Source: a virus
Reading direction: 5' to 3' (one strand)
Virus record (IMG/VR): IMGVR_UViG_3300025869_000126
Span: 1 to 20,863 of that record
Length of the DNA stretch: 20,863 nucleotides
Part shown: piece by piece, positions 7,462 to 20,863 of the stretch
Layout of the letters: each line of letters starts with the position of its first letter
Position numbering within the stretch: the stretch's first letter is position 1
Notes under the pieces: model-generated
What the model was told of the DNA's origin: nothing
The model's input: only the letters and a program-made list of their open reading frames with translations
The model's database searches: none
Position numbers and translations under genes: made by a program

Positions 7462-7592
7462 AAGATACTAAAAGCACTCAATCATTTACAGATTGGGTGC
7501 TAGACTTTCAAGAGCAACACCAAGAATTATTATCTGAAAATAACTACGAAGATATTATACTTGAGAAGGCTGTGGATAACTTTGACAAATAA
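7449..7592 (+). CDS. Small acidic protein, 47 aa
   Basis: This 47-residue protein begins MVKIKDTKSTQSFTDWVLDF and has a helical, acidic remainder (QEQHQELLSENNYEDIILEK). An AGAGG site lies about 9 bases upstream. It overlaps the preceding gene by 13 bases. It ends four bases before the TTGACA promoter-like box of the next sub-block. The function is unknown. Confidence 0.6.
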   Translation: MVKIKDTKSTQSFTDWVLDFQEQHQELLSENNYEDIILEKAVDNFDK

Positions 7593-7595
7593 TGT

Positions 7596-7623
7596 TTGAC
7601 AATATCCTATATTAGTTTATAGG
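7596..7623 (+). promoter_or_regulatory. Candidate promoter for the structured leader and amidoligase block
   Basis: A perfect TTGACA (7596-7601) is followed after 16 bases by TATAGG (7618-7623, four of six). The -35 region reads TTGACAAT, the same eight bases as the promoters at 13717 and 15865. Transcription would begin about 7630, at the start of a hairpin. Confidence 0.55.
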
Positions 7624-7630
7624 GTATTAT

Positions 7631-7655
7631 CAAGTATTATGTGGTTTAATACTTG
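7631..7655 (+). other. Hairpin at the predicted 5' end of the leader RNA
   Basis: CAAGTATT (7631-7638) and AATACTTG (7648-7655) form eight perfect pairs with a 9-base loop. It begins almost exactly where transcription from the preceding promoter should start, so it may be a 5' stabilising hairpin. The 11-base string ACTTGGCTTAA at 7651-7661 is repeated from 7069-7079. Confidence 0.6.
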
Positions 7656-7665
7656 GCTTAAATTA

Positions 7666-7787
7666 TGTGAGGTAATTCTAGCTTTAACACTAACAGTAAT
7701 GAGATGGAAACAACAAATTCCAAACTTGTTAAAGTACTTTCATTATGGCTTATGATGTTATTGTCTAGGCTAGAATTATAACTCACA
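7666..7787 (+). ncRNA. Candidate structured leader RNA upstream of the amidoligase gene
   Basis: A long closing stem is visible. TGTGAG (7666-7671) pairs with CTCACA (7782-7787), then a small internal loop (one base against three), then TAATTCTAGC (7673-7682) pairs with GCTAGAATTA (7769-7778). Inside it, TAATGA (7697-7702) can pair with TCATTA (7740-7745), and AACAA (7712-7716) with TTGTT (7726-7730). No reading frame with a ribosome site crosses it. The AGGAG of the amidoligase gene begins nine bases after the outer stem, so the element lies in its 5' leader. It does not match any riboswitch I know. It could also be a small mobile repeat with 16-pair ends, but no target duplication is visible. 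Confidence 0.5.
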
Positions 7788-7805
7788 ATCTAACAGGAGT
7801 CTTTT

Positions 7806-8993
7806 ATGACTTTACTACAATTTATACGACAACCTGTCTTTAACTTATCTAATGAGCAAATTAGAAATGTGTTAGACGATAGTCAACTACCAAATGGTTG
7901 GTCAGCAACTATGGTACAAAGATTTATTAATCAATGTCCATATGACAATCTAGTAGATTCACTCAATGACAGCTATTATGATTTGAGAAATTGCCATGAT
8001 TGTGGCGATGCTATGTATGATGATGATGCCTACTTATGTTATGAGGGTGATTATACGATTTGCTCTGATTGTTCAGATTCTAATTATTATTATTCAGAGA
8101 ATCGTGACACATATATTCATAATGATGATTATGATGAGTATGATTCTGACTATGATGATGAGGGTTATTCTGGTGTTCACAGATACGAAACAAATGTCCT
8201 TGACCACCTTGACTTCCAACTCACAGCTAGTGAGCAACAGCAACAAAACAAGGGTAAGAAACTCTTGTATTGTGGTGTTGAATTAGAGGTCGAGAGGAGA
8301 AACGATTGTCCAGATGATATTGCCCACCATATCAATACATCTGTACTACCAGACTTTGCTATCTGTAAATCAGATGGCTCACTTGACAATGGCTTTGAGA
8401 TTGTGACAGCACCAAGTACTTATGCTATGCACAAAAAGAATTGGTCAAAGTTCTTTGATGACGAGCAATGTCGAGACAATCTGAAGGGTTGGTCTACAGA
8501 TACAGCAGGACTTCATATTCACTTATCAAGAAATGCTTTAACACCTTCAGAGATTGGTAAAATACTTATATTTATCAATGACGAAACCAACAAAGATTTC
8601 ATTGACCAGATTGCTGGTCGCTCATCTCATCAATGGGCAAAGAAATCGCCCAAGAAAATTACAGATGCTTTCAATTCTTCAGACAAGTATGAGGCTGTCA
8701 ATACATCACACAGGAATACAATCGAACTTCGTATCTTTCGTAGTAATGTATCCAAGCATGGTTTCTTTCGTGTCTTAGAATTTGCATTTGCATTATCTGA
8801 CTTTGTCAAATCAACTTCAATAGCTTTGACAAGTTTACACTACACAGCTTTCTTTCGTTTCATGTCTAGACCAGAAAACAAATCGACTTACCCAAACTTA
8901 TCAGCTTGGTTAATTCGTAAAGGTCACATCAATGGAAAGCCTTCACGCTCAATTAGTGAGCAAGAAGAACTAACTAGCACAGCTACTAACTAG
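7806..8993 (+). CDS. Amidoligase (COOH-NH2 ligase) with N-terminal zinc-ribbon-like domain, 395 aa
   Basis: This is a predicted ATP-dependent ligase of the glutamine-synthetase-like amidoligase family, forming amide or isopeptide bonds between a carboxylate and an amine. The catalytic part shows the family signatures in order: CGVELEVE (156-163), KSDGSLDNGFEIVTAPSTY (188-206), GLHIHLSR (235-242) and IELRIFRSN (306-314), supplying the expected Glu, His and Arg residues. Residues 63-89 contain CHDC and CSDC pairs plus C78, a likely zinc ribbon. Residues 91-126 form a striking Asp/Tyr-rich linker. AGGAG lies six bases before the ATG. The next gene is a class II amidotransferase. Such pairs are described in phages as peptide- or metabolite-modifying systems. 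The substrate is unknown. Confidence 0.87.
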   Translation: MTLLQFIRQPVFNLSNEQIRNVLDDSQLPNGWSATMVQRFINQCPYDNLVDSLNDSYYDLRNCHDCGDAMYDDDAYLCYEGDYTICSDCSDSNYYYSENRDTYIHNDDYDEYDSDYDDEGYSGVHRYETNVLDHLDFQLTASEQQQQNKGKKLLYCGVELEVERRNDCPDDIAHHINTSVLPDFAICKSDGSLDNGFEIVTAPSTYAMHKKNWSKFFDDEQCRDNLKGWSTDTAGLHIHLSRNALTPSEIGKILIFINDETNKDFIDQIAGRSSHQWAKKSPKKITDAFNSSDKYEAVNTSHRNTIELRIFRSNVSKHGFFRVLEFAFALSDFVKSTSIALTSLHYTAFFRFMSRPENKSTYPNLSAWLIRKGHINGKPSRSISEQEELTSTATN

Positions 8994-9005: not shown

Positions 9006-9953
9006 ATGTGTTTAATTATTAAAACTGACAATCCAAGTCAACTACATAGTGGTTTATTAGAAACTGCTTACGAAAACAATCCAGATGGTTTTGGTGTAAT
9101 GTTTTGTAACAATGGCAAACTACACACTCACAAAATCGTACCCAAGACTTTCAAAGATGTTGAAAAGCTATGGGATAAATACAAGAATGTTGATTCTGGT
9201 ATGGGTATCCACTTCAGATTCAACACCAATGGAGATACTAACCGAGCTATGTCGCACCCTTTTGAAGTCTTATCCAAAGCCAAAGGTGATGACAGGGATA
9301 TGTGGGTAATGCACAATGGACCTCAACTTCCTACACCCATGATTGACAACAACAAATCTGACACACATCAGTTTGTCAAATGGGTATTACGACCACAACT
9401 CTCAGCCAATCCCAAACTACTACACAATGCAGAGTGGCAAGAAATGATTGAGGAACTTATTGGTACTGACAAGTTATTATTTCTTGATGGCAAAACCAAA
9501 GAGTTTGTCATCTTCAACGAATCTGAGGGCAAAGATATGGACAATGTAGGTTGGTTATCCAATACCTATTCTATCCAACCTTCTAGCTATGGTGTGCGTG
9601 ACAAGTACTACGACTTCGAAACTAACACCATGAAAGATGTTGCCAAAGACAAATACACTTGGGCATATGATGATGAAGATTGGGCATACTCTAGCTATGG
9701 TGGTGGCTATCGTACAGTACCACGACAAAAATTCACAGGTCAGACATCTGGCAAAGTCATAGACTACACAGCCGACAAAGGGGGGCAAGTAGATACTAAA
9801 GCTGTCGAAGATGATAGCTTGATGTACAATGGCAAACATCTACAATGGGATGACCTGTGTACTAGAGACAGAGAAGAACTTGTCGAACTATGCGAAGAAA
9901 ATCCTGTGGGTGTAGCAAGTTACATTCACACCAACATTACAGGGGGCAACTAA
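9006..9953 (+). CDS. Class II glutamine amidotransferase-like protein, 315 aa
   Basis: This is an Ntn-hydrolase-fold glutaminase domain that would release ammonia from glutamine or open a gamma-glutamyl amide. The nucleophile Cys is residue 2 (MCLII), so the initiator Met must be removed. Other family features are NNPDGFG (24-30), IHFRFNTNG (68-76), SHPF (83-86) and MHNG (102-105), matching the usual PDG.G, HxR.AT, HPF and xHNG positions. The C-terminal 110 residues (from about 205) are Tyr/Asp/Thr-rich and have no recognised domain. An AAGGG site lies before the ATG. It directly follows the amidoligase, so it may supply ammonia to it or reverse its linkage. Confidence 0.87.
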   Translation: MCLIIKTDNPSQLHSGLLETAYENNPDGFGVMFCNNGKLHTHKIVPKTFKDVEKLWDKYKNVDSGMGIHFRFNTNGDTNRAMSHPFEVLSKAKGDDRDMWVMHNGPQLPTPMIDNNKSDTHQFVKWVLRPQLSANPKLLHNAEWQEMIEELIGTDKLLFLDGKTKEFVIFNESEGKDMDNVGWLSNTYSIQPSSYGVRDKYYDFETNTMKDVAKDKYTWAYDDEDWAYSSYGGGYRTVPRQKFTGQTSGKVIDYTADKGGQVDTKAVEDDSLMYNGKHLQWDDLCTRDREELVELCEENPVGVASYIHTNITGGN

Positions 9954-9954
9954 T

Positions 9955-10737
9955 ATGGACTTCACACCTAACATTAACTACTCTTACAATAACGAATACA
10001 TCTTTGGTATTCCATTCAACAAAAGCTACCAACTACTATGTCGCACCACACGAACTATAAATGGTGTGACCGAAGATGTCTGGGCAAACACCCAGAAAAT
10101 GTATGCTAGTGGAGAAATGTTTCCTAGATTCATGCAACTATCTGACATTGAGTTTGGTGTTATGAAATCTAACAAAGAGATAATCTTCAACACCACCAAT
10201 ACAGATATGAATATACCCAAGAAAAACTATACACATTTTATTATCAAGGGTACAGCAATATCAAATGGAGAGTGGCACAGATTATCTACACCTCAAGATA
10301 CTGTTAGGTGGTCTGCATTTGAACTCAAACACCTACGACACAATCGTACCATACAGCAATCTTATCCACACATGATGAATAGATTACAGAATACTTATGA
10401 TTCTGGTCAGACATTGTGGTCAAAGCTATGCGACTATTCTCTTAGAACTGTGAGAGAGATAACAACTAGGCAAAGATGTCAAGCTGTAACAAAAGAATTA
10501 TCCAGACAGAGATACTTCAACAACTTCAAGCTACCTCGTACAGCTAAGACTATTCAGTTTGAGACTATACAGTACGAAGTATCTGCTAGAAAGAAGAGAG
10601 GTTTGTCTCTTGGTACACCTCGTGTCAAAGGACAATCAGTAATATCATCTGTGTTCAACTATCCATTAGAGAACAATCACAGATACACATTGAATTGGTC
10701 ATCACTACGACACGCACATAATGGTTATGCAGTATAA
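9955..10737 (+). CDS. Unknown protein in the amidoligase block, 260 aa
   Basis: This is a 260-residue protein with no domain I recognise. It is rich in Asn, Thr, Tyr and Arg. The N-terminal half looks beta-rich (NEYIFGIPFNKSYQLLCRTT). The middle has a basic helical region with many Arg (SLRTVREITTRQRCQAVTKE). The C-terminal part holds ARKKRGLSLGTPRVKG. It has no signal peptide or membrane span. It starts two bases after the amidotransferase stop and has the same codon style as its two upstream neighbours, so it probably works with them. It could be the partner, target or DNA-binding component of the amidoligase system, but this is inference. Confidence 0.75.
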   Translation: MDFTPNINYSYNNEYIFGIPFNKSYQLLCRTTRTINGVTEDVWANTQKMYASGEMFPRFMQLSDIEFGVMKSNKEIIFNTTNTDMNIPKKNYTHFIIKGTAISNGEWHRLSTPQDTVRWSAFELKHLRHNRTIQQSYPHMMNRLQNTYDSGQTLWSKLCDYSLRTVREITTRQRCQAVTKELSRQRYFNNFKLPRTAKTIQFETIQYEVSARKKRGLSLGTPRVKGQSVISSVFNYPLENNHRYTLNWSSLRHAHNGYAV

Positions 10738-10921
10738 TACCGATTGTATACCGAAAGATTCCGATAGGTACTGATATCGAGGTAAGTAGGGTAATGACTA
10801 TCTCTTATATATAAAATATATATATAATAAAAATTGTATGTATATAGTAATATATAGGAGTCTTCCGCCACCCATTCTACCAAAAGCGTACCTCTCGGTA
10901 TCTATCGGTAGTCTATCGGTA
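10738..10921. repeat. Inverted iteron-like arrays around an AT-rich core; candidate origin or operator
   Basis: The left arm (10738-10770) and right arm (10889-10921) are 33-base imperfect inverted repeats, agreeing at 27 of 33 positions. Each arm itself holds three direct copies of a motif near TACCGATAGAT. The CCGA cores lie at 10740, 10751 and 10761 on the plus strand, and the TCGG cores at 10895, 10905 and 10916. Spacing is thus 11 and 10 bases in both arms, one DNA turn. Between the arms is an almost pure A/T stretch (about 10803-10857). Both outer ends abut TATAAT. The 10922-10962 remainder holds no gene. The layout fits a replication origin or a cooperative operator. Confidence 0.7.
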
Positions 10922-10962
10922 TAATGCCTAATTATTTTATTGACAAAAGAAAGGATTATGAT

Positions 10963-11079
10963 ATGATTACATTTACAATATTTGCACTAGGACTAGCTAC
11001 AGGAATGTTGGCTACTTATATTACATACTGCATATGGGTAATCTGTATGTGGATAATTAATCAGAAGAGGGGGATATGA
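10963..11079 (+). CDS. Small membrane peptide, 38 aa
   Basis: This 38-residue peptide is almost entirely hydrophobic from residue 2 to 32 (begins MITFTIFALGLATGMLATYI), with aromatic and Cys residues in the second part and a basic end (NQKRGI). It would form one long or two short membrane spans. AAAGGA lies before the ATG. It ends two bases before the next small peptide. No family is recognised. It could be a membrane-active early peptide, or a small substrate or anchor for the surrounding modification genes. The latter is speculation from position. Confidence 0.6.
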   Translation: MITFTIFALGLATGMLATYITYCIWVICMWIINQKRGI

Positions 11080-11676: not shown

Positions 11677-11962
11677 GATAGGACAGAAAGTATCCAAGAA
11701 AGATTTGAATCTCGTACAAGTAGAATGGCTCGACGCAATGTCGGATGATAACACTTGGCAAGAACTAGATGAACTACGAAAACAAAAGCTAAGACCTGTC
11801 ACCTGTGTCGGTTGGCTGCTAACACAAAATTCAGAGGTGACTATACTTATATCATCATTCGATGAAGATAGTCAATGTGGTGGTGGGGGTACAGTTATAC
11901 CTACTAACTGCGTACAAAAAATTACGAAGGTAAGGGAGAAAAATGACGACACAAACAACTAG
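11669..11962 (+). CDS. Conserved-type small phage protein, 97 aa
   Basis: This 97-residue protein contains VQVEWLDAMSDDNTWQELDE, then CVGWLLTQNSEVTILISSFD and a Gly-rich turn before TVIPTNCVQKITKV. The layout (VEWxDA.S.D..W, then VGWLL.....I.L..S.DED, then IP...I.KI) resembles a small all-beta family common in phage early regions, known to me only as hypothetical. The ATG at 11669 is chosen because AAAGGA lies about six bases upstream. The ATG at 11663 is too close to it. It overlaps both neighbours (8 and 20 bases). Confidence 0.75.
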   Translation: MNEIGQKVSKKDLNLVQVEWLDAMSDDNTWQELDELRKQKLRPVTCVGWLLTQNSEVTILISSFDEDSQCGGGGTVIPTNCVQKITKVREKNDDTNN

Positions 11963-12368
11963 CCTATTTGTATATGGCACACTCAAGAGGGGGCACAGAT
12001 TGAATAGTGTGCTAGGCGGCGGCTCAACTTTGATATACCCTGCCATAACACTATTAAACAACTACGACTTACAGGGATATGCCGACGCATTTCCTATAAT
12101 GACACTAACAGAAGAAGGAGAAGGATACAGAATATTGGGAGAACTATATTCAGTAATGCCCTCTGTCATGGATAGGGTAAACTCTATCGAGGGTGGTGCG
12201 GGTTACATACCATACATAGTAGATGTGAGACCGATAGATTCTAATGAGAAAAGAGTAGAACAAGCAATCACATTTATCTATCCTAACACCGACAAGTACA
12301 TGACCTTATCGCCTATCAATTCTACCAAGATGTCTGACATAACAGGGGAAGTAAAGGTGTGGGCATGA
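11943..12368 (+). CDS. Gamma-glutamylcyclotransferase-like (GGCT/AIG2 fold) protein, 141 aa
   Basis: The GGCT fold cleaves gamma-glutamyl amines or amides with formation of 5-oxoproline. Family features are present: FVYGTLKRG at 9-17 (substrate-binding YGTL loop), GELYSV at about 66-71, and IEGGAGYIPYIVDV at about 82-95 with a Glu at the usual catalytic place before the Y.R/Y.P strand. Length fits the family. GGGAG lies about 5 bases before the ATG. Its stop overlaps the next start (ATGA). With an amidoligase and a class II amidotransferase 2-4 kb upstream, it probably removes, trims or recycles a gamma-glutamyl linkage made by that system. Activity is not proven. Confidence 0.85.
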   Translation: MTTQTTSLFVYGTLKRGHRLNSVLGGGSTLIYPAITLLNNYDLQGYADAFPIMTLTEEGEGYRILGELYSVMPSVMDRVNSIEGGAGYIPYIVDVRPIDSNEKRVEQAITFIYPNTDKYMTLSPINSTKMSDITGEVKVWA

Positions 12369-12544: not shown

Positions 12545-12765
12545 AAAAAGAAGAAGATATACTTGAAGACGGAGATTTTGTTTTAGATGGATACAGTATT
12601 CATTTAGACAAGAATGTTGCAAAACACAATGATGATTTGGAACAAGATATAAACGATTACGAAGATATACAGGAGGACTATGCCTTTCAATCCGAAGACA
12701 CACAACCTATTGCAGTCGACAGATTTGTCAGTCGCTTTGGAAAAAGCCGTCGATCATCTAGATAA
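12514..12765 (+). CDS. Small charged protein, 83 aa
   Basis: This 83-residue protein begins MARDPYKKKIEKEEDILEDG, is acidic in the middle and basic at the end (SRFGKSRRSSR). AGGAG seven bases before ATG 12514 fixes the start. A longer frame from 12400 would run deep inside the membrane gene. Unusually, its last 86 bases overlap the next gene in another frame. No domain is recognised. Confidence 0.55.
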   Translation: MARDPYKKKIEKEEDILEDGDFVLDGYSIHLDKNVAKHNDDLEQDINDYEDIQEDYAFQSEDTQPIAVDRFVSRFGKSRRSSR

Positions 12766-13003
12766 CTCAGAGACAGACGAGCCATTTATTTGTGTAAAAA
12801 CTGATAAGCCTTTCTCATTGAAGATGAGGTTTCATCAATACATCAAAGCCTTTAAGGTGCAGATGAAAGATGTAGCAGAGGTAGATGAGAATAAATATGA
12901 CCACCTTACCTTTACCGATGAAGGAGATAAAGAATTAATTATTACTTCTTCCTTAGAGAAAGACCAATTAGTATTACTAACAGATGAAGGAGACATACTA
13001 TGA
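12680..13003 (+). CDS. Hypothetical protein, 107 aa
   Basis: This 107-residue protein has a perfect AGGAGG close to the ATG (three bases between, shorter than usual). It begins MPFNPKTHNLLQSTDLSVAL. The remainder is mixed alpha/beta (KMRFHQYIKAFKVQMKDVAE), ending with two acidic strands (TFTDEGDKELIITSS). Its stop overlaps the next start as ATGA. The function is unknown. The first 86 bases are shared with the previous gene. Confidence 0.65.
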   Translation: MPFNPKTHNLLQSTDLSVALEKAVDHLDNSETDEPFICVKTDKPFSLKMRFHQYIKAFKVQMKDVAEVDENKYDHLTFTDEGDKELIITSSLEKDQLVLLTDEGDIL

Positions 13004-16727: not shown

Positions 16728-17164
16728 TGGCAGATATTCAAAACTTTTTAACCATGCATCCAGACGATATACCAGAAACGCAGGTGCTACCAGAAGGTAG
16801 TTACGACTTCGTTATCACTAGTTATCGTTCGGATAAAGTTGGTGAGAAGCAAAATGAGATTGTGCGTATCAACGTAAAGGCTCAAGCAGTTCTGGAATCA
16901 GACATCACAGATGGTGATTTGGAAAACTGTGAACCAACCAGATTGGAGTTCTGGGCTACTAAAAATGCTCTGAAACAGGGTAACCCTGTTATCTCATTGA
17001 AATCTTTCTTGTTTAGTGCTATGGGCATGGACAAGGTAGGCTTTGGTGAAGCATTAGAGCAAAGCATTGGTCAAACATTTAGCGGTGTTGTGAAACACGA
17101 AATGGTTGGCAGAAATAAAGATATACTACAGGCTTCGGTCAGTCGTATATTGAAAGCGGCATAA
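16727..17164 (+). CDS. DUF669-like protein, presumed ssDNA-binding, 145 aa
   Basis: This 145-residue protein begins MADIQNFLTMHPDDIPETQV, followed by LPEGSYDFVITSYRSD. That is the familiar 'lp.G.Y...I..se.k....G....l.v...V' start of DUF669-type proteins placed next to Sak4-like ATPases. The rest is beta-rich and suggests an OB-like fold. A single-stranded DNA-binding role is inferred from the family context and partner. The start overlaps the ATPase stop (TAATG). Confidence 0.72.
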   Translation: MADIQNFLTMHPDDIPETQVLPEGSYDFVITSYRSDKVGEKQNEIVRINVKAQAVLESDITDGDLENCEPTRLEFWATKNALKQGNPVISLKSFLFSAMGMDKVGFGEALEQSIGQTFSGVVKHEMVGRNKDILQASVSRILKAA

Positions 17165-17168
17165 TCAT

Positions 17169-18245
17169 ATGGGTGAGTATGCAGTGCACAGAAGAGTTGC
17201 GTCACAACTTGTAGATAAACCACAGATCTGCATTGTTATGGATCATCCTTCCAACGACGAAGTACGTTTGAATAAAATACTTGCAGGTGATTTTATTATA
17301 AGCAGAATCTGTACACAAGTCGGTATTGACATTAACAAATGCATGCTCACCCACGCATTCCAACTAAAGCCTGCACAGGACAACTTACAAAACTTCTTTC
17401 ACAAAAGAAGTGAGTACAAAGCTTTATGCAAAGACTCTGAGTGGAGAACGCCTTATCCGATTACCACCTATGGATACCTCAAACAGGAGATGGGTCAAGA
17501 CTTAGAACGTTTGTATAATGAAATCAATGAAGCACAGCCTAACGTAATTATTGCAATGGGTAGTATTTCATTGTGGGCACTGACGGGCTTTGATAAGATT
17601 GGTGTGTATCGGGGTGCTGTGATTGAATCTTCTACGGATTCTCTTAACAGAAATTACAAAATTATACCTTCTTATAGTCCGTCAGCCGTCTTTAAAAATT
17701 ATGGATTTAGATATCATCTTTATTCAGATTATAAAAAAGCAAAACGAGAATCAAGAACATCAAAGATAAATTACGAAGAACGAGAACTTTGGATAGAACC
17801 AAGCATAGAAGACTTATATACATTTGAAAGTAAATACATCAAAGATTTGGGTGACACCAAGCCTTTATCATTCGACATTGAAACAGCAGGCGGGCAGATA
17901 ACTTGTATTGGGTTTGCCCCCTCCTTAAACCACGCAATCGTTGTACCATTTACATATAACTATTGGGCTGAACCCGATAGGAAAAAAGCTTGGGCATGGG
18001 TTAAGAGATTATTAGAAGACGAGACCATAGTTAAAGTTGCACAGAACCAGACATATGATGTGTCATGGTTGAAGTATATGCAAGACATAGAAGTCAGAGG
18101 AACGATCCACGACACTATGCATGCACAACACTCATTGCAACCAGAACTAGAAAAAGGTCTTGGATTCCTGGGCTCCACATACACTAACGAGGGTGCATGG
18201 AAAACTTTAGCCAAGTTTTCTGACAGCACAAAAGCCGATGAGTAG
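17169..18245 (+). CDS. Family A DNA polymerase, N-terminal piece: UDG-like domain plus part of 3'-5' exonuclease, 358 aa
   Basis: Residues 1-190 resemble a family 4 uracil-DNA glycosylase: CIVMDHPSND (21-30) stands where GEAPG..ED is usual, VIIAMGSISLWALTG (126-140) matches the core strand and helix, and IIPSYSPSAVFKN (165-177) stands for the YHPS motif. The catalytic loop is degenerate, so activity is doubtful. Residues 230-350 are the proofreading exonuclease: Exo I is LSFDIETAGG with D236 and E238, Exo II is AQNQTYDVSWL with N293 and D297, and IHDTMHAQHSLQPE follows. The protein stops before the Exo III motif, which is found at the start of the gene at 18773. It should therefore act together with that product. 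Confidence 0.87.
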   Translation: MGEYAVHRRVASQLVDKPQICIVMDHPSNDEVRLNKILAGDFIISRICTQVGIDINKCMLTHAFQLKPAQDNLQNFFHKRSEYKALCKDSEWRTPYPITTYGYLKQEMGQDLERLYNEINEAQPNVIIAMGSISLWALTGFDKIGVYRGAVIESSTDSLNRNYKIIPSYSPSAVFKNYGFRYHLYSDYKKAKRESRTSKINYEERELWIEPSIEDLYTFESKYIKDLGDTKPLSFDIETAGGQITCIGFAPSLNHAIVVPFTYNYWAEPDRKKAWAWVKRLLEDETIVKVAQNQTYDVSWLKYMQDIEVRGTIHDTMHAQHSLQPELEKGLGFLGSTYTNEGAWKTLAKFSDSTKADE

Positions 18246-18610: not shown

Positions 18611-18782
18611 AAACATAGCTAAACTTTGGACTGCTTATCTTAAGACAGAAGTTTCTGCCCACGATGTAGCTATCTGTATGCTACTACTAAAAGTTGCACG
18701 ACTACAACAAGGAACTCCTAGTGCCGATACATATATTGATATGGTAGGGTACTCGGCTATTGCAGGAGAGATATGCGAATAA
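18516..18782 (+). CDS. DUF6378-like small protein, 88 aa, inserted between polymerase pieces
   Basis: This 88-residue protein contains the pattern of the phage DUF6378 family: AKELLSGDREKEYGNKKANH, then LWTAYLKTEVSAHDVAICML, LLKVARLQQG and DTYIDMVGYSAIAGE. The helical layout and conserved acidic residues recall MazG-like or all-alpha NTP pyrophosphatases and nucleotide-modification-associated domains, but the activity of this family is not established. AAGG lies before the ATG. The start lies inside the preceding gene, and the stop lies 10 bases into the polymerase piece. Confidence 0.83.
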   Translation: MAVTINENLKKAKELLSGDREKEYGNKKANHENIAKLWTAYLKTEVSAHDVAICMLLLKVARLQQGTPSADTYIDMVGYSAIAGEICE

Positions 18783-20317
18783 TTAAAAATACAGAAATAG
18801 GCAAACACGAGTTATCTAAGAATCAAATGAATTGGGTGTACTGTGCTTTAGATTGCACACTTACTCATGAGATATGGACAAAGATTTACGAAGAGTTGGA
18901 TGAAGAAGTAAGGGGCACATATCAATTTGAATTAAACAGCTTAAAGCCTGCGATGAGTATGATGTTAAAAGGACTCAAAGTAGATGAGGAGAAAGTACGT
19001 AGTATAAAGGAACCTCTTAAGAAGAATAGATTAAAACTAGAACGTATGTTACATTTGTTTGCCAATGCTGTATGGGGTAAAGATTTAAATCACAACAGCC
19101 CTGTTCAACTTAAAAAACTTTTATACGAAGAACTAAACTTACCACCTGTTGTTTCCTACAAGGGGGGCAAGCAAAAGATATCTACAGATAGAGCGGCGTT
19201 GGAACAATTATCAGAAACATATCCAAGAGCCAAACCATTCTGTTACACCATACTAGCACTGCGTGATATCGACAAACACTTATCTGTATTGGCATCTACA
19301 AGAGACAAAGACGGGCGTATTCGTTGCTCGTACAATGTAGCAGGCACAGAGACAGGTCGTTGGTCTTCTTCAGAAAGTCCTTGGCGTACAGGTACTAACT
19401 TACAAAATGTGACGAAAGATTTACGCGCTGTATTCATACCTGACACAGGACAAAAAATGTTCTATGCGGATTTAGAACAAGCAGAATCTAGAGCGGTTGC
19501 ATATTTAGCAGGCGATCAAAATTATATAGATGTTTGTGAGAGTACAGACTTGCATACAGAAGTTGTTAAAATGGTCTGGCCCAACATGGGTTGGTCTGGA
19601 GATCCTAAACAAGATAGAGCACTAGCGGACAAACCTTACTATTTGCATCACAGTTACAGAGATATTTGTAAACGAGCAGGACATGGTACTAACTATGGTG
19701 TTACGGCACACTCGCTTGCACGTCAGATTAAAATAAAAGTATCACAAGCTACAAGATTTCAGTTGCTTTATTTTGGTGGTATGGTATCATTAGAATCAGT
19801 AGAACGTTGGCATAAACAAGACATCAAGGGGGGCTTCAGAGAATTGATTGACCAAGGAGAAAAACTATCTGGCAATATGTTAAAAGTTAAAGGGGCGTTT
19901 CCTGGAATCAGAGATTGGCACCGTGCTATTCGCTTAGAACTAAATGAAAAGGGTTGCTTGACAACTCCATTAGGCAGACGCAGACAGTTTTGGGATAGAC
20001 TATCAGACAATTCTACCTTACGACAAGCCATTGCTTATGTACCACAATCAACAATAGGTGACTTACTCAATCTAGGTTTGTACAGAGTATGGAATGAGTT
20101 GGCTAGTGAAGGTGTTGAAGTGTTGGGTCAAGTACATGATGCAATACTCGGTCAATGTCCTATAGATAAAATAGATGAACTAATGCCAAAAGTATTAGAA
20201 AGAATGCACAATCCATTGATGGTCGATGGACGTAAAATGATTATACCGTCTTCAGTTGAGATTGGTGACACATGGAAGGATATGAAAACATGGCACGGAA
20301 CTACCCAGATTACATAA
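18773..20317 (+). CDS. polA: Family A DNA polymerase, C-terminal piece: Exo III plus polymerase domain, 514 aa
   Basis: This is the replicative polymerase of the phage. Residues 19-35 (MNWVYCALDCTLTHEIW) carry the Exo III motif Y23-x3-D27 that is missing from the 358-aa upstream product. The polymerase domain has TGRWSS (194-199), motif A FYADLEQAESR with D233, motif B RDICKRAGHGTNYG (296-309) with R296, K300 and Y308, and motif C QVHDAILG with H455 and D456. The motif B position equal to E. coli Phe762 is His304, and the usual Glu after the motif C Asp is Ala457. GGAG lies before the ATG. It overlaps the next gene by 28 bases. Confidence 0.92.
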   Translation: MRIIKNTEIGKHELSKNQMNWVYCALDCTLTHEIWTKIYEELDEEVRGTYQFELNSLKPAMSMMLKGLKVDEEKVRSIKEPLKKNRLKLERMLHLFANAVWGKDLNHNSPVQLKKLLYEELNLPPVVSYKGGKQKISTDRAALEQLSETYPRAKPFCYTILALRDIDKHLSVLASTRDKDGRIRCSYNVAGTETGRWSSSESPWRTGTNLQNVTKDLRAVFIPDTGQKMFYADLEQAESRAVAYLAGDQNYIDVCESTDLHTEVVKMVWPNMGWSGDPKQDRALADKPYYLHHSYRDICKRAGHGTNYGVTAHSLARQIKIKVSQATRFQLLYFGGMVSLESVERWHKQDIKGGFRELIDQGEKLSGNMLKVKGAFPGIRDWHRAIRLELNEKGCLTTPLGRRRQFWDRLSDNSTLRQAIAYVPQSTIGDLLNLGLYRVWNELASEGVEVLGQVHDAILGQCPIDKIDELMPKVLERMHNPLMVDGRKMIIPSSVEIGDTWKDMKTWHGTTQIT

Positions 20318-20863
20318 AGGCTTGTGTAGATGCAGTTAAATATAGCCCCATTCCTAAACCATTTGCACAATGGACAGCTATCTCATCAATCGCAGGTGCA
20401 TTGGGAAGAAAAGTTTGGTTTCCTATGCCTAACTATAACATTGGGTCTAACCTATTTGTTATCCTAATTGCATCACCTGGTCGTAACAAATCAGTAAGTT
20501 TAATAGTACCTTTCTCAAAAGTATTCAGTAGACTTACATCACCTGTAGGTGCAACAGAAGAAGATCATAATTTTAATTCTGGTTTAGATGCATATGGATT
20601 ACGCAATCATCCTTTGTATTCTATACAAGATAGAATTACTCCAGAGAAACTTGCGGTTGATATGACTAAGATTACTCGTATGGATTTACGTTTATGTACA
20701 GAAGAGAATCCAGAATTTTATGATTCATCTTTGACTCTAGTAACTTCAGAGTTTGGTACATTCATGGGCAGGAACGAAAGATACTTGCAAATGTTTTTAA
20801 CAGATATGTGGGATGCGAAAGATCAGTATAGTCACAAAACAAAAACATCTGGTGAATATATTA
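20290..20863 (+). CDS. DUF3987-like helicase/primase-type ATPase (partial, N-terminal 191 residues)
   Basis: The frame is open to the right edge. It begins MARNYPDYIKACVDAVKYSP, continues IPKPFAQWTAISSIAGALGR and KVWFPMPNYN, then SNLFVILIASPGRNKSVSLI. That matches the DUF3987 layout: an N-terminal helical region, a 'W..l...agalgRr.w' block, then a P-loop after 'n.y..l.a.pg..Ks'. The P-loop is ASPGRNKS, with Asn replacing the usual Gly before Lys. SLTLVTSEFGTF near 155-166 would be the Walker B region. AAGGA precedes the ATG. It sits next to the polymerase and is likely the replicative helicase or helicase-primase. Confidence 0.75.
   Translation, partial: MARNYPDYIKACVDAVKYSPIPKPFAQWTAISSIAGALGRKVWFPMPNYNIGSNLFVILIASPGRNKSVSLIVPFSKVFSRLTSPVGATEEDHNFNSGLDAYGLRNHPLYSIQDRITPEKLAVDMTKITRMDLRLCTEENPEFYDSSLTLVTSEFGTFMGRNERYLQMFLTDMWDAKDQYSHKTKTSGEYI

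Follow-up and report, generated by a model that had tools for sequence, protein, structure and literature searches.

The locus under investigation raises the question of which function is served by a set of short repeats that face each other, as two opposed arrays, across an A/T-rich core between two genes of an uncultured phage. It is contained in a 20,863-base IMG/VR record (IMGVR_UViG_3300025869_000126), whose entire length is termed the window and whose coordinates are used throughout. Based on the sequence comparisons described below, we regard the element, with moderate confidence, as a phage DNA replication origin in which two iteron arrays oppose each other. Leftward portal and terminase genes fill the first ~6.3 kb of the window and all larger genes from ~7 kb onward are rightward, encoding amidoligase-like, glutamine-amidotransferase-like and GGCT proteins, a PD-(D/E)XK nuclease, a Sak4-like ATPase, a family-A DNA polymerase and the start of a DUF3987 protein, with the amidotransferase and GGCT names derived partly from the initial annotation and partly from database matches. 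The element sits between the stop of a gene coding for 260 residues and a small membrane-protein-like ORF starting at ~10963, and it is flanked by the amidoligase-like (7806-8993), glutamine-amidotransferase-like (9006-9953) and GGCT (11943-12368) genes. An SSB-like protein is encoded downstream. The family-A polymerase is split into a protein with UDG-like and 3'-5' exonuclease parts (17169-18245), a 121-aa protein and the polymerase domain (18773-20317). The features relevant for our considerations are the following:

10738-10770, plus strand: left arm, with iterons at 10739-10748 (ACCGATTGTA), 10750-10759 (ACCGAAAGAT) and 10760-10769 (TCCGATAGGT); same place and layout in relatives
10889-10921, minus strand: right arm, with minus-strand iterons at 10890-10899 (ACCGAGAGGT), 10900-10909 (ACCGATAGAT) and 10911-10920 (ACCGATAGAC); conserved in relatives
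10805-10859, no strand assigned: A/T-rich core, proposed unwinding element, holding TTGTATGTATATA as the window's version of a conserved motif
10802-10860, plus strand: predicted long hairpin within the core from a computed fold (z of the inner region -4.1 on the plus and -2.3 on the minus strand)
10940-10967, plus strand: sigma-70-type promoter (TTGACA-N16-TATGAT), which points away from the element and overlaps with the beginning of the small ORF that follows
9955-10737, plus strand: p9955, fast-evolving 260-aa protein whose gene ends at the left arm
12680-13003, plus strand: p12680, 107-aa protein, candidate iteron-binding (specificity) protein
20272-20863, plus strand: start of a DUF3987 primase/helicase-like gene, cut by the end of the window; proposed partner at the origin

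The two arms are imperfect inverted copies that match in 27 of 33 positions, as stated in the initial annotation, and they outscore every other 33-mer inverted repeat that the window contains within a range of 300 bp. When the window was shuffled 283 times with its dinucleotides kept, the top inverted repeat of each shuffle matched in 21-26 positions (mean 22.6) and none attained 27. Equally confirmed was the spacing of the cores, with CCGA located at 10740, 10751 and 10761 in the left arm (11 + 10 bases) and TCGG at 10895, 10905 and 10916 in the right arm, where the spacing is mirrored (10 + 11). Tandem short repeats at helical distance, as they characterize iteron origins, are thus found three per arm at 10-11 bp and are kept in relatives, and an adjacent A/T-rich melting region has its counterpart, at the sequence level, in the 55 bp between 10805 and 10859, whose A/T content of 91% is, by a narrow distance (50/55 vs 48/55 elsewhere), the highest of any 55-mer in the window. 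This stretch corresponds to the ~55 A/T bases that had been described between the arms, but the arms themselves are separated by 118 bp. The gap is indeed devoid of genes, apart from a mechanical 52-aa TTG ORF on the minus strand. The TATAAT sequences that had been noted at both outer edges are present at 10733-10738 and 10920-10925 but incidental, because both read on the plus strand and are hence not mirror copies, the left one includes the stop codon (TAA) of the preceding gene, and relatives lack both. The site placed inside the GGCT gene at ~12229 is found at 12230, as a lone site and not as part of an array.

It is the arrangement of the sites rather than their number that is unusual. 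Single sites resembling ACCGATAGAT are found 17 times in the whole window against 14.9 expected, which is at chance level, and arrays are not spread through the genome. Upon position-specific scoring of their own iterons in ten genomes, helically spaced groups were located inside the element only, except for one chance pair. The presence of a single array per genome speaks against a regulator that acts at numerous operators. Imperfect inverted repeats also occur in a second intergenic region (7578-7800), upstream of the amidoligase gene, where 24 of 33 positions match at 7662/7757; this score is equalled in 30 of the 283 shuffles and is not significant.

The comparison with related phages, which had been proposed for the arms, found them kept at the same place. 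A search with the neighbouring protein p9006 identified 38 near loci that are syntenic across the region, 22 of which span the site of the element, and in all 22 the opposed iteron arrays occupy the same place and rank first or second among the inverted repeats of the interval. Among 38 examinable distant loci from a profile search, with 46-53% identity in the neighbouring protein, 27 show the same layout. The 11 element-free distant loci are also devoid of p9955, p11152, p11943 and p12680 and share only the amidoligase module with the element carriers. The amidoligase-like and glutamine-amidotransferase-like genes appear to travel as a module because they are found also in phages without the element and its cluster. 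DUF3987 is present in element-bearing contigs and absent from three long element-free ones. In one clade, p9955 is absent and the element directly follows p9006. The A/T core is present in all elements seen; the motif common to relatives is AATCGTATGTATATA or AATCGTATATTA, often preceded by ACTATATATAGT, and the core is bordered by G-rich and C-rich stretches or hairpins. The phage family carrying the element is uncultured and mostly marine. Relatives of p12680 were found neither among the cultured phages of the collection nor in 84,980 prokaryote species genomes, and a comparable inverted array was not found in the cultured phages Kuura and PaP2, which share the DNA polymerase or DUF3987.

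A further conserved feature concerns the promoter located to the right of the right arm, which was detected in 26 of 44 elements compared to 1.9% of random 80-mers, with a pattern defined by a -35 box of TTGAC or TTGCA, a spacing of 16-17 bp and a -10 box of TANNNT. Several of the remaining clades carry TTGACG at this place, which is outside the scoring of the strict pattern. The outermost site of the right arm is located ~11-23 bp upstream of the -35 box, and this proximity would equally suit an operator, where a phage regulator binds both arrays, joins them or covers the core, and controls the strong outward promoter of the early and replication operon. The fact that the candidate binder is encoded in the operon under control of this promoter would be in line with such a transcriptional switch, as would the known co-evolution of regulators and operators in phage immunity. 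We nevertheless consider this function, which is the main rival of an origin, unlikely. There is no fixed helical phase between the arms, whose distance is 158, 160 or 162 bp in near-identical phages (and thus changes by 2 and 4 bp) and varies widely between clades, which disfavours the looping operator that the initial annotation had offered as an alternative; the distance from arm to promoter varies as well. Moreover, the arrays are confined to a single locus, a simple operator would account neither for the conservation of the long A/T core nor for its hairpins, and a lysogeny switch is made unlikely by the fact that no integrase was found. Both functions could still apply to the same element, as it is common for an iteron initiator to control its own promoter.

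Whether the arms act as DNA or RNA is reflected in their mismatches, as RNA pairing would favour G-U mismatches on one strand. The counts of 94 G-T type and 91 A-C type mismatches, along with 271 transversions, show no such bias, and the arms contain direct repeats that would be superfluous for a stem. By the pattern of their substitutions, the arms thus behave as opposed DNA sites, and an RNA stem formed by them was rejected on the wobble count. The properties of the core are distinct. In most lineages, the folding of its inner plus strand surpasses that of shuffled sequences (z mostly -2 to -5), and usually also that of the minus strand. In one clade, a hairpin of 11 pairs, other than the one at 10802-10860 of the window, shows clear covariation: its pairing amounts to 99%, 12 cells carry double changes compared to 4.2 in shuffles, and the wobble changes are solely of the plus-strand type. 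The core thus appears to contain strand-specific structure, in the form of either exposed single-stranded DNA or RNA. The described folding and covariation would be expected from a structured non-coding RNA or a plus-strand mRNA leader, where several hairpins are enclosed by a long stem of the two arms and the molecule serves as regulator or primer. In light of the behaviour of the arms, the restriction of the covarying hairpin to one clade and the absence of any Rfam model matching the element at gathering score, with loose E-value matches far under the curated cut-offs, we find this interpretation improbable. Still, RNA or an exposed plus strand inside an origin would yield the same signal in the core, and the proposed RNA may in this way be part of the origin itself.

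A connection between the element and a protein emerges from four closely related phages (L080, L084, L085 and L089), whose cores are 91-100% alike but whose iterons differ. The sequence of the site switches in both arms, usually together, between an ACCGA-type (L080 and L089), a TCGA/CCGA-type (L085) and an ACATGG-type (L084). Most early proteins of these phages are 85-100% alike, whereas the identity of p12680 is 63-71% for differing motifs and 91% for the same motif (L080/L089). The opposite is observed for p9955 (82-84%) and p11152 (about 73%), which differ more in the pair with the same motif. The correlation between the identity of p12680 and the similarity of the motif is described by a rho of 0.75 in 25 close, non-independent pairs, and about three switches in one clade carry most of this signal. 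In the same comparison, ten other protein families show values between -0.34 and 0.31, and p12680 thus appears to be the only one of 11 families that tracks the motif switch. Since no correlation with the motif is seen for the genes that separate p12680 from the element, physical linkage fails to explain the relationship. The correlation vanishes across all 630 pairs, as expected if motif similarity saturates, and the assignment thus relies on close pairs. Some of the pairs fit poorly, namely L034/L036, where p12680 is still 78% alike despite strongly different motifs, and L017/L025, where it is just 73% alike despite a shared motif. The switching of both arms together with a small early protein fits the relationship between iterons and a cognate binder, and along with the conservation of the arms and the single array per genome it lends partial support to the iteron origin of the initial annotation. 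In the chimeric locus L190:1-450 (contig 3300034190_001337), the arms are of two types, the left of the L085 and the right of the L089 type, and p12680, with 99% identity to L085, matches the left arm, which suggests that the core was a site of recombination and that mixed arms are tolerated.

Based on these relationships, we propose p12680 as candidate iteron-binding protein. Its switch-associated residues cluster in a predicted beta1-H2-beta2-beta3 region and spare the N-terminal helices. The AF2 model (pLDDT 77) shows a succession of helix-strand-helix-strand-strand with no fold match in the PDB, and searches of Pfam, PHROG and PDB sequences retrieved no relative, so that the protein was not recognized as an initiator of a known Rep or O-type family. 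Its acidic character, with a net charge of -2 to -10, implies that binding may require a basic surface, such as the modelled helix 44-61, or a partner protein, or may not occur. Other candidates were dismissed. The protein p9955 was favoured at first because its gene ends at the left arm, but it was rejected as obligatory binder since it is absent in L082, L091, L093 and L098 despite the presence of the element, and it does not track the motif; its AF2 model is poor (pLDDT 60) with no meaningful fold match. Neither does p11152 track the motif, and the product of a 71-75 aa gene upstream of p7806 diverges regardless of it.

Further observations concern individual genes of these and related phages. 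Fast divergence between near-identical phages (60-67% identity) is seen for the 71-75 aa gene that precedes the amidoligase gene (L084:2892-3119, L085:183-398, L089:2904-3119). A 339-aa ORF beside ribonucleotide reductase genes of the L085 contig (G016, reversed, 17006-18025) has 72% identity compared to 99-100% in its neighbours and is possibly a mobile or inserted gene. The p13898 family contains a second copy after p11152 in one clade (L071, L078, L080, L084, L085, L086 and L089; e.g. L084:7464-7718 and 9831-10091).

The global switch in GC skew, which had been considered as a mark of the origin, maps elsewhere than to the element and, taken by itself, counts against an origin here. Its minimum is found at ~6725, where the two gene blocks diverge, and it follows gene direction, a coincidence that leaves it with little to say about replication. 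At four-fold sites of genes running in the same direction, the skew is lower to the left of the element than to its right in 14 of 15 contigs, with pooled values of -0.31 in the 2 kb on the left and of -0.11 and +0.04 on the right. This difference would lend weak support to an origin, as the genes are orthologous, with codon use as a possible cause, and the contigs are related.

In the mechanism that we envisage for an origin, protomers of p12680 would line up on the iterons along one face of the helix, and the two rows would join into a single complex by which the intervening core is melted. At the hairpins of the exposed plus strand, the DUF3987 primase/helicase, the family-A polymerase and the SSB-like protein would then find a place to land or to prime. 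Transcription from the outward promoter would add negative supercoiling and, as the promoter would express an operon including the gene of the binder itself, might provide a means of self-regulation. The origins of most uncultured phages are unknown. Here, the sequence by itself points to a probable one, along with a candidate initiator unrecognized by databases and natural variants of its specificity in near-identical genomes. Origin recognition and the fast change of origin type thereby become directly testable with a 107-aa protein and 200 bp of DNA. If the proposal holds, interchangeable 'origin types' could evade origin-directed nucleases or the interference from related phages and satellites.

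The described architecture bears resemblance to several known systems. In the parC locus of plasmid R1, two sets of ~11-bp iterons flank a central region, and this likeness, together with the occurrence of one element per genome, would be compatible with a phage protein that binds the element for centromere-like partition or for packaging. However, the repeats of parC run in direct rather than inverted orientation around a central promoter and interact with different proteins, the small terminase gene is ~4.5 kb away from the element, and a partition ATPase was not recognized among the genes covered by a general scan, which makes this assignment quite improbable. The arm-type sites of phage lambda attP, too, are short repeats that follow each other at about 10 bp within opposed arms, and a recombination site with such sites on both sides would look similar. 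In this case, a tyrosine or serine recombinase was found in none of ten contigs (five of 32-38 kb), with control searches being positive, and there is no sign of prophages as no relative of p12680 was found in the 84,980 prokaryote genomes. We thus rejected the attP of an integrating phage and assign only a very small probability to any attP-like site.

Further correspondences exist to replication origins. Iteron plasmids such as R6K, RK2, F and their relatives share the tandem repeats, the A/T-rich melting region, the nearby initiator gene, for which we have a candidate, and a likely autoregulation, but their iterons are longer (typically 17-22 bp) and located on one side, and the binder proposed here matches no Rep family. 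As proposed for the element, short tandem sites and a phage initiator are combined in lambdoid origins (ori-lambda and Stx phages, with O as initiator) with a meltable A/T tract, nearby transcription and replication genes in the same early region. In contrast, lambdoid iterons (four in lambda and six in Stx phages) reside on one side of the tract inside gene O (PMC7466680), whereas here two opposed arrays flank the core in an intergenic region, with no O-type homologue found near the element. Diversifying iterons with a cognate initiator, again a candidate in our case, are shared with the PLE satellites of Vibrio cholerae, where RepA binds three ~30-bp semi-palindromic iterons and replication modules are exchanged, for which the phage nuclease Odn was suggested to select (PMC8263062). 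The element differs by its ~11-bp units in mirror arrays and by a switching that takes place among the phages themselves, with no driving nuclease known. Thus, iteron and initiator switching has precedents in the literature, where we did not find a description of this element. Since p12680 has no relatives in the cultured phages and prokaryote genomes searched, and Kuura and PaP2 carry no comparable array, we view the element as a variant on known iteron origins with a candidate binder of unassigned family. Tentatively, and with less confidence than in its assignment as origin, it might even define a new kind, combining opposed iteron arrays, a melting core with strand-specific hairpins, a small initiator of unfamiliar fold and a specificity that flips between near-identical phages.
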